In this document: piece after piece, positions 3,335 through 5,422 of the stretch
How the letters are laid out: every line of letters begins with the position of its first letter
Position numbering within the stretch: position 1 is the first letter of the stretch
NCBI GenBank assembly: GCA_021413565.1
Contig: JAIOQC010000025.1
Coordinates: 1 to 10,422 of the forward strand
Length of the DNA stretch: 10,422 nt
Source of the DNA: Candidatus Nomurabacteria bacterium
Lineage (GTDB): Bacteria; Patescibacteriota; Minisyncoccia; Phycocordibacterales; UBA9973
Direction of reading: 5' to 3'
Notes under the pieces: generated by a model
Database searches by the model: none
What the model saw: only the letters and a program-made list of their open reading frames with translations
What the model was told of the DNA's origin: nothing
Translations under genes and position numbers: made by a program

Positions 3335-5422
3335 TTAAAGCATTTCCAAAAATTCAACCTCAGAAACAATCTGAATATTAAGTTTCTTGGCATCATTATA
3401 TTTACTACCTGCATTCTCCCCTGCTAATACATAACTTGTTTTATTTGATACAGAAGATGAAACACTACCACCATTTTCTGTGATTTTCTTTTTGGCTTCA
3501 TCTCGAGACATAGTATCTAAAGTACCAGTTAAAACAAAAGTTTTACCAGAAAAAATACCGCCCTTCACTTTTTCATGATAAATAGTTACACCATTTTTAA
3601 TAAGTTTATTAATTAAATTAAGATTGGCTTCATCTTGGAAAAACTTCACAATACTGTTCGAAACAATTGGACCGATATTTTCTATACTATTAATTTCTTC
3701 AACATCGGCTTTTTGTATTTTATCAAGTGAGCCAAAATGATTTGCCAAGTCACGAGCAGTTTGCTCCCCTACATGAATAATCCCTAAGGCATAAATAAAT
3801 CGCCAAAGTAAAATTCTTTTATGTAGAGAAATAGAAGTAATAATATTCTCGGCGGATTTTACGCCAAAGCGTTCGAGTCCTGACAAATCAGCAACCTCAA
3901 GAGTAAATAAATCTGCGGAATCACTAATTAAACCTTCATCTTTTAATCTACCGAGAATCTTTGGACCAATCGTATAGATTTCAAATACACTTACAAAATG
4001 TTGCAAGGCTCGAGCATTCTTGGCTGGACAATTCTTGTTGGTACAATAATATGCAACGCTAGGCCCACCGGAAGTGGGCAAAGTCTTATGAGAAACAGTC
4101 TGGCCTCGACCTTCCAAAGAATTTGTCGAGGATATCCGAGGACTTTTCGAATAAGAGCTTTGCTCGCTTCCGGTATTTTTTTTCTCCACTTCAAAATTAC
4201 ACACTGGACACTTTGATGGCATTTTGAATTTCTTTTCTTTTCCTGTGCGCAATTTTGCAAGAACTTCCACAACTTCAGGTATGACATCTCCCGCTTTCTG
4301 AATAACAACCGTATCGCCAATACGAATATCAAGTCGATTAATCTGATCCATATTGTGAAGCGTTGATTTTGATACAGTAGAACCAGCAACAAGAGTCGGG
4401 TTGAAATGTGCAAGTGGAGTAAGTACTCCAGTGCGACCAACATTGGTCGTAATATCCAAAACGATAGTTGTGGCTCTCTCGGCTGGATATTTAAAAGCCA
4501 CCATATAGCGTGGTGCCTTTCCAACAACACCAATCTTGTCTCTTAGAGCGAGTTCATCAACCGTAACAACAATACCATCAGTACCATAGGGTAAGTTTTC
4601 ACGAATCTTTCCCATTTCGTCAATAAAAGAAAATACTTTATCTAGAGTATCCGCTTTACTTTCATACGGTGCAACTTGAAATCCAAGTTCGCGAAGAGAT
4701 GAATGAATGTCAGAATGATTTGCAATAGATAGTCCAATGGCATCCCAAGCAAAGAAATCAAGTTTACGCTCTTTTACAATAGATGGATCAAGTTGTCGTA
4801 ATGAACCTGCGGCAGCATTACGAGTATTTGCAAAAAGTTGTTTACCTTCTTTCTCTTGAGTTTTATTTAATGAGCGCCAAACACGCTTAGGCATTACCAC
4901 TTCCCCTCGTACTTCAAAAGATTCTGGACATGAACCTTTTAATTTCAGTGGAATTGTCTCAATCATCTTGAGATTCTCTGTTATATCTTCACCAATGAAT
5001 CCGTCACCACGAGTTGCACCACGAACAAATACACCATTCTCGTAAATGAGTGAAATAGCGAGTCCATCAAGTTTCAATTCGCAGAAATAATTTAAGGAAG
5101 TCGGAACTCCTAAAATTTTTAAAGTACGAGTTTCCCATTGAGAAACTTCATCCTTAGAAAAAGCATCATTTAAAGACAACATTCGAGTGTTGTGTGTAAC
5201 TTTCTTAAATTTATCCAATGGCTTACCGGCAACACGATAAACTGCACTATTCTCATCTATAAACTGAGGATATTGTTCTTCTAAATTATGAAGTTCTCGT
5301 GATAATGATTCATAGACATCATCAGTCACACTGGGATTATTGGTGACATGGTATGCAAATCTCAGGCGAGAAATCTCATCCCGAAGTTTTTGTATTCGTT
5401 TTTGAATTTGTAAATCAGACAT
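3335..5422 (-). CDS. ligA: NAD-dependent DNA ligase
   Basis: LigA seals nicks in replication and repair, using NAD to adenylate an active-site lysine. The full domain order is present: Ia (1-70) with the Y-H region for NMN binding, nucleotidyltransferase with the K117-L-D-G motif, OB fold (about 320-395, with [10 protein letters not shown]), Cys4 zinc finger (C405, C408, C460, C465), helix-hairpin-helix repeats (about 480-600) and a C-terminal BRCT domain (about 622-695). The zinc finger is odd: 51 residues lie between the second and third Cys, against about 12-14 normally. The extra 37 or so residues are Ser/Thr-rich and match a palindromic DNA insert. I chose the ATG at 5422, seven bases after the preceding pilin stop; an ATG at 5458 would add 12 atypical residues and overlap that gene. 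Length is 695 aa, against about 670 usually. Confidence 0.96.
4063..4173. repeat. 111-bp nested palindromic insert inside ligA
   Basis: The segment contains several inverted repeats. CCGGAAG (4068-4074) pairs with CTTCCGG (4167-4173) across the whole element. AAAGTC (4080-4085) pairs with GACTTT (4141-4146), enclosing CCTCGAC (4104-4110) with GTCGAGG (4125-4131). There are also local hairpins GCCCAC/GTGGGC (4063-4079) and GAGC/GCTC (4155-4165). It corresponds to 37 codons, the same size as the excess in the LigA zinc-finger loop, and reads through without a stop. It resembles in style the in-frame palindromic elements known from Rickettsia, but no family assignment is possible from one copy. 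Confidence 0.6.

Follow-up and report, generated by a model that had tools for sequence, protein, structure and literature searches.

A palindromic insert in the zinc finger of a Nomurabacteria DNA ligase and the dispersed family of structured elements it represents

How does an essential enzyme come to carry a hairpin-forming stretch of DNA, translated in frame, in the middle of a zinc finger? The question is raised by ligA, the gene for NAD-dependent DNA ligase, in a contig of Candidatus Nomurabacteria bacterium (assembly GCA_021413565.1, contig JAIOQC010000025.1, positions 1 to 10,422; this whole stretch of 10,422 nt is called here the window). An initial annotation of the window had taken a block of inverted repeats in this gene for a small palindromic mobile sequence that tolerates translation. 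We found that the block has relatives dispersed through the host genome and its congeners, in frame in many genes. It is probably a copy of a Paceibacterota family of small structured DNA elements which is spreading, or has recently spread, as a hairpin formed by one strand; that the family moves at all we infer from comparison of copies.

The insert in the LigA zinc finger

The host open reading frame (ORF) spans 3335-5458 from a TTG start, with a probable ATG at 5422, and its product matches the NCBIfam LigA model with E-value 3.4e-235. The reading frame runs unbroken across the insert. The features of the locus are as follows.

3335..5422, minus strand: ligA (NAD-dependent DNA ligase), the host gene (ORF list; NCBIfam PRK07956/TIGR00575)
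4028..4030, minus strand: codon of zinc Cys465 (LigA alignment)
4043..4045, minus strand: codon of zinc Cys460 (LigA alignment)
4067..4174, no strand assigned: whole palindromic insert, element with locus-specific outer arms (inverted repeats, folds, empty sites in relatives)
4067..4083, plus strand: outer arm ACCGGAAGTGGGCAAAG (inverted-repeat detection)
4084..4097, plus strand: inner hairpin arm adjoining the conserved apex (inverted repeat 4084-4095; folds)
4098..4143, plus strand: conserved apex (core), GTCTGGCCTCG-18 nt-CGAGGATATCCGAGGAC (shared with other family copies)
4144..4157, plus strand: inner hairpin arm, opposite side (inverted repeat 4145-4156; folds)
4158..4174, plus strand: outer arm CTTTGCTCGCTTCCGGT (inverted-repeat detection)
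4199..4201, minus strand: codon of zinc Cys408 (LigA alignment)
4208..4210, minus strand: codon of zinc Cys405 (LigA alignment)

All four zinc cysteines (C405, C408, C460 and C465) are kept, as had been noted, and are invariant across 50 aligned LigA sequences. Cys408 and Cys460 enclose 51 residues, the number given in the initial annotation. Of 120 listed LigA homologues 117 could be scored for this spacing: it was 12-22 residues in 29 of them, 25-26 in seven and 36-71 in 81. Short loops thus exist, but the 12-14 residues once assumed to be normal are only the low end of the short class. The estimate of about 37 excess residues agrees well with these spacings and with the ∼36 residues which 4067-4174 adds to the zinc-finger loop.

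The palindrome is real and in frame, though its bounds are 4067-4174 rather than 4063..4173. Mechanical inverted-repeat detection gave outer arms of 17 nt (4067-4083 and 4158-4174, 88% complementary) and inner arms of 12 nt (4084-4095 and 4145-4156, 83% complementary). The block folds nearly end to end, with −48.1 kcal/mol (z −5.4) under RNA parameters and −24.7 (z −4.9) under DNA parameters; none of 200 dinucleotide shuffles folded as well with either set. The terminal CCGGAAG/CTTCCGG arms, noted earlier at the ends of the block, are present but are specific to the locus and the species; the family shares the apex 4098-4143 and the hairpin plan. In other species the sequence of the outer arm 4067..4083 is changed, with complementarity to its own partner kept.

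In an AlphaFold2 model of the window LigA, made with the 50-sequence alignment, residues 417-455 have confidence scores (pLDDT) below 50 and lie between two strands of the zinc-finger hairpin, which fits an unstructured loop. As far as the model goes, the insert most likely gives the protein a disordered loop at the hairpin tip, for which no separate function is evident.

A dispersed family in genes and spacers

A DNA search of the window assembly (500 kb in 102 contigs, 84% complete) produced further partial matches sharing the apex GTCCTCGG...CCAGAC on one strand. Eight curated copies, the one in ligA included, are contained in this incomplete assembly: others lie in truB (in frame), in tgt and in spacers, among which we recognized by eye the spacer between rpmI-like and rplT-like genes and two places downstream of an rplK-like gene. 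For the family the conserved apex is GTCCTCGG...GCCAGAC. The pattern GTCCTCGGN{12,42}GCCAGAC had 125 exact matches in 20 of the 24 genomes of the genus, with no match of the reversed pattern in the 24; a covariance model of seven copies had matches at E-values up to 1 in 21 of them. At the level of the order, the element was found in 23 of 297 genomes and 15 of 165 genera (control 0), and presence of the element is patchy among close relatives.

A scan of the genome_contigs collection with the family pattern gave at least 118 stretches. The 80 matches listed come from contigs labelled Nomura-, Kaiser-, Adler-, Zambryski-, Vogel-, Pacei-, Parcu- or Patescibacteria, or bacteria without a lineage name. 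One exception among the matches listed is a contig labelled Bacteroidetes (L287, JACAAW010000233.1), with the element in a truB-like frame; it is probably misbinned Paceibacterota DNA. Carriage by viruses found no support, with 0 matches in viral_contigs to the order-wide pattern, one that does not detect genus core types II and III. Nor did copies in the window or at loci L007, L008 and L009 match a known RNA family in Rfam at E-values up to 5.

The genus set was obtained from 149 regular-expression hits, of which 13 were dropped (eight with two mismatches, three shifted duplicates and two armless), leaving 136 curated copies; 81 further copies bring the collection to 217. Since copies were found through the core pattern or through covariance model R1, those with decayed cores are under-counted, and R1 matches without the exact pattern are included only in part. 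The core is mostly 31-56 nt long, and the element with arms measures ∼90-110 bp. A variant core has an extra GC-rich hairpin after GTCCTCG (L007 1519-1602, L020 1388, L092 2049, L144 2045), perhaps forming a three-way junction.

Nearly half of the genus copies (63 of 136, counted as in frame when at least 60 codons were open on both sides) are read as parts of proteins. They are spread over 15 gene groups, most of them for DNA-repair or tRNA enzymes: LigA (11 copies), Tgt (8), UvrC (7), TruB (6), PheT (5), UvrB and TsaD (4 each), PolA, PepN, RNase HII and UvrA (3 each), PheS and LeuS (2 each), Cca and MnmA (1 each). Each group was named by NCBIfam from one representative; UvrC, TruB, PheT, PepN and Cca score under the curated cut-off, as may be expected because these proteins carry the insert. 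Open frames contain 30 of the 81 further copies, including PolA (5), the RecG group (3), the RecJ group, TsaD and Tgt (2 each), LigA, TruB (on the Bacteroidetes-labelled contig), IleS, SMC, RseP and MurE. Outside the genus set there were 20 gene groups, of which five were named by BLAST to genus genes and 10 were run on NCBIfam (six named, four matching no family); the nine groups without a name may be spurious open frames.

What is conserved in these copies is the nucleic acid and not a peptide, as all six frames are used: 11, 20 and 14 copies in the three frames with the GTCCTCGG strand coding, and 2, 9 and 7 with the other strand coding. A conserved peptide is thus rejected, no fixed peptide being selected. 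A core with no stop in any of the six frames was found in 42 of the 63 gene copies and 28 of the 73 other copies, and among 21% of shuffled cores.

Relatives with an empty ligA site do exist. Among 21 LigA rows of the genus, eight have the short loop and 13 the long one; 11 of the long loops contain a family core, in both orientations and of several core types, and two contain other or decayed inserts. On a LigA tree that leaves out the loop, empty alleles branch among filled ones (genome G013, with the gene split over contigs, was excluded, and G014 and G020 had no LigA match). The empty label requires six changes on this tree, with a mean of 6.6 for shuffled labels and 202 of 500 shuffles as low; if only the well-supported inner branches are counted, five of 18, two changes or more are still needed.

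The same picture was seen in other hosts. Core-bearing alleles made up eight of 20 Tgt loops and four of 10 UvrB loops that could be read (out of 23 and 22 loci, respectively, the rest being off the expression used), side by side with short alleles and other long ones; in genome G003 the short alleles have 12 residues (Tgt) and seven residues (UvrB) between the chosen anchors. Because short, core-bearing and other-palindrome alleles coexist in them, the Tgt, UvrB and LigA loops resemble common insertion sites used by several palindrome families.

The other palindromes are of at least two types. Family B, with apex CGCYTTACCY...GGGCTCCGACGC, has 30 matches in nine of the 24 genus genomes (control 0) and is in frame in tgt and ligA where it was read, for example at L393 (tgt, G004) and L397 (ligA, G010); for a few of its tgt and ligA copies the arms were inspected by eye. 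A third type, AGGTCCAACCTC...GAGGTTGTACCTC, was noticed by eye in the same loops: in Tgt of G023 and G005, LigA of G021 and G023, and UvrB of G021.

Arms, strand signature and competing explanations

We characterized the anatomy of the element on the strand reading GTCTGG...CCGAGGAC, referred to as F, which is the complement of the GTCCTCGG strand. In the window the plus strand is F, the strand whose fold is favoured family-wide, and it is the template strand of ligA. An extra base adjoins the apex, consistently on one side, in 107 of the 136 genus copies and in 51 of the 81 further copies (158 of 217), mostly A on the GTCCTCGG strand and hence T on F. A frame of CTHC, d nt, core, d+1 nt and THCG, with d mostly 21-22, fits 64 of the 217 copies, in genes and spacers alike; matched CTHC/THCG loops were found in 93 of the 217, where controls gave 51 on average (maximum 59).

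The 64 framed copies have 57 different left arms, and still 92.5% of the scored outer positions pair on F; when right arms were re-dealt among the copies, 60.1% were paired (maximum 65.0% of 200 deals). Several pair types occur at each arm position. Mismatches recur at particular places, with T.T at pair 10 in 23 copies, A.G at pair 13 in 10 and G.A at pair 15 in 10. When copies sharing gene and orientation were compared across species, the left arm paired better with its own right arm than with the foreign one in 177 of 184 comparisons. Arm similarity is 0.662 within the same gene, 0.545 within the same genome and 0.535 with neither shared; core similarity is 0.744 within the same genome, 0.725 within the same gene and 0.663 with neither, and none of 500 label shuffles reached 0.744. 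Arms therefore follow the gene; for cores, gene and genome count about equally. Simple concerted evolution of cores was rejected, its effect being mild.

The mismatches are distributed unequally between the strands. On F the 136 genus copies have 113 G.T against 31 A.C and 247 A.G against 37 C.T, and the 81 further copies have 81 against 21 and 117 against 19; these are counts and not probabilities, because copies share ancestry. Where F is the template strand of a gene (45 copies) there are 51 G.T to 13 A.C and 78 A.G to 14 C.T, and where it is the coding strand (18 copies) the direction is the same, with 25 A.G to 5 C.T and 12 G.T to 5 A.C. This one-strand signature in the arms points to a folded single-stranded intermediate, and the simplest reading is that the folded F strand is recognized, either as single-stranded DNA or as an RNA other than the host mRNA.

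On this reading a factor of the host or of the element would detect the folded GTCTGG...CCGAGGAC strand through its shape and insert it. The copies that survive would be those in spacers, or those in genes that landed at an exposed loop with the frame kept; an apex in which, as in most gene copies, no frame has a stop could make landings survivable in either orientation. A more specific proposal, which we regard as possible but tentative, is a shape-defined mobility system of Paceibacterota in which a putative structure-specific enzyme inserts the one-strand hairpin and the arms drift or are remade at each site. The best-preserved form would then have the conserved apex, a fixed arm length and a GNA base loop, and an apex open in six frames would let the hairpin persist within essential genes, among which those of DNA repair and tRNA would often be hosts. 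By eye, in the filled ligA alleles of G007, G008 and G012 compared with the empty ones of G004 and G011, one outer arm aligns with host coding sequence and the second resembles an inverted copy of the first; inverted copying of host sequence into one outer arm is thus suggested for ligA.

It could be argued that the copies are host regulatory hairpins, those in spacers tuning expression or terminating transcription and those in genes being by-products kept for a role in mRNA. The placement of the 73 non-gene copies speaks for it: co-directional genes flank 48 of them with the GTCCTCGG strand as the sense strand and five with it antisense (eight are between convergent or divergent genes and 12 are unclassed), the next ORF starts at a median of 39 nt past the core in the 48 sense copies, and many spacer arms end, as judged by eye, in terminator-like A/T runs. 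A role in mRNA, however, would follow the sense strand, and G.T and G.A mismatches are kept on F even within genes, where it is usually the template strand, which argues against such a function. With nearly half of the genus copies in coding sequence in six frames, and with patchy presence among close relatives, we consider a regulatory origin unlikely.

Template switching at quasi-palindromes could keep the arms complementary with no selection on the fold. Such correction has been proposed for coding palindromes in mitochondria of Nematomorpha (PMC6649704), and the strong co-variation of arms within species at one locus (the 177 of 184 comparisons) is what it would give. It predicts perfect Watson-Crick arms and no strand preference of G.T and G.A, whereas the extra apex base persists in 158 of 217 copies and mismatch positions recur in the framed copies. 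The strand preference together with the persistent extra base argues against template-switch correction, and we find it improbable as the main cause.

There is a similarly small chance that the ligA loop is old, a single ancestral insertion followed by many losses with no recent movement. An inner arm motif is common to LigA of several species, the site is the same, and loss alone could scatter the empty alleles. Against a single old insertion stand both orientations and different types of core at the ligA site, other palindromes in the same loops, and core similarity tracking the genome about as much as the gene; moreover, a loop present in all relatives with no other copies is at odds with the empty alleles and the copies at many other loci. 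An artefact of assembly or binning is next to impossible: records are mostly metagenome-assembled among the matches listed, but the same anatomy with intact reading frames appears in many independent assemblies, the single-contig genome G017 included.

Several observations weigh against spread of the family as a one-strand hairpin, or at least limit the case for it. The copies are of shared ancestry and not independent. T.T mismatches are also frequent on F in the genus (128 against 60 A.A; 18 against 30 outside the genus). The CTHC/THCG frame is confined to 64 of the 217 copies and is absent from the window copy, where the outer arms run on instead. That both orientations are met in one ligA loop could in part be due to an old copy having been inverted or converted. 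The list of host genes consists of raw counts, and the LigA structure is a moderate model (mean pLDDT 75.6) in which residues 346-380 are low as well.

The search for a mobilizing factor adds to these points. Y1 (RAYT-type) transposases are encoded in 19 of the 24 genus genomes; they are absent from five carriers of the element (some of them incomplete genomes) and present in three genomes without it (G003, G013 and G014 show no match to the element), and the 12 Y1 loci that we read have hairpins of their own with no core motif. A reverse transcriptase is found in 12 of the 24 and is absent from the copy-rich genomes G001, G005, G009 and G021. In the 24 genomes and at the 12 Y1 loci no transposase was linked to the element, and among the copies compared no transposition event was seen and no target-site duplication was established. 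Such a duplication, along with terminal inverted repeats in common with an autonomous transposase gene, would mark a MITE of a classical insertion sequence.

Two candidate mechanisms were set aside on these grounds. Transfer by a RAYT/Y1 transposase has no support, given the patchy co-occurrence and the other hairpins at the 12 loci; the presence and absence counts in the 24 genomes likewise give none to reverse transcription, the gene being missing from copy-rich genomes. The RAYT-type genes (L202-L213) are flanked by hairpins of their own, several with apex AGGTCTTGCCT or AGGCAAGACCT.

A further part of the window was read by eye from the ORF list. A series of prepilin-like ORFs lies beside ligA at 5430-10330, with a probable prepilin peptidase at 7853-8668 and a PilC-like ORF at 9554-10330; by its ORFs the region may be a type IV pilus or competence cluster adjoining ligA.

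Known palindromes and significance

In style the nearest known system, by analogy, is that of the Rickettsia palindromic elements (RPE), with which the initial annotation had compared the insert. RPE are described as palindromes of ∼100-150 bp of which one genome may have several families; they occur in spacers and, in frame and at positions exposed to solvent, in genes unrelated to one another (PMC10969869, PMC3767692, PMC3733652, PMC6649704). Among the targets is tRNA pseudouridine synthase B (PMC3733652 section 15). They reportedly encode a conserved peptide, and identity between their arms is lost (PMC6649704). The present palindromes are likewise dispersed and of more than one family (136 copies, with 30 matches of a second family), at ∼90-110 bp matching the low end of the size range; they are inserted in frame at tolerated, exposed places (63 of 136 copies, exposure being suggested for LigA only by the low-confidence loop of its model), and TruB is among their targets. 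The comparison holds for style but not for membership, as the present element has no conserved peptide in one frame and uses six. The same RPE descriptions set it apart further: its arms change with compensation, it has a one-strand signature, and its lineage is another one.

Repetitive extragenic palindromes (REPs) provide a second comparison. According to PMC3733652, intragenic REPs hit UvrABC, DNA polymerase I, DNA ligase, tRNA synthetases and TruB; GTAG/CGTC REPs have stems of 5-13 bp and an unpaired GTAG or CGTC tag and are often dimers, with complementary stem changes and GT pairs noted. As far as described there, the present family resembles GTAG/CGTC REPs as short palindromes in spacers and genes with the same kinds of target. 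It differs from REPs in arms of ∼21/22 nt, an apex with an internal loop, and CTHC/THCG on both sides with a variable H (64 framed copies), and from GTAG REPs, again within that description, in not flanking RAYT genes, given the other hairpins at 12 Y1 loci and the five carriers without Y1.

The Nematomorpha mitochondrial palindromes are inverted repeats in protein genes with complementary arms, gained and lost between species (PMC6649704). The present family shares with them location in protein genes, arms kept complementary, and gain and loss between species; unlike those palindromes, nearly all of them perfect, it is dispersed and has a conserved apex and recurrent mismatches.

By analogy only, the element also resembles the integron attC site in being an imperfect palindrome with shape kept over sequence and one strand favoured. 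The attC sites of integrons are imperfect palindromes of variable sequence and conserved shape with one active strand. In literature on Patescibacteria, Parcubacteria and the candidate phyla radiation no such element was described among the matches listed.

In-frame palindromes are best known from Rickettsia, Wolbachia and scattered REPs. Here a large family of the candidate phyla radiation hits nearly the same genes as unrelated REPs do in other phyla. The shared targets (excision repair, DNA polymerase I, ligase, TruB and tRNA synthetases) suggest a common reason, be it insertion linked to repair or tolerance of the proteins, and a target list common to unrelated families is a lead in itself. 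The covarying arms and the one-strand signature make movement of the palindrome testable, as to which strand, which enzyme, and sequence versus shape. The family illustrates, finally, how tiny genomes acquire new protein segments.
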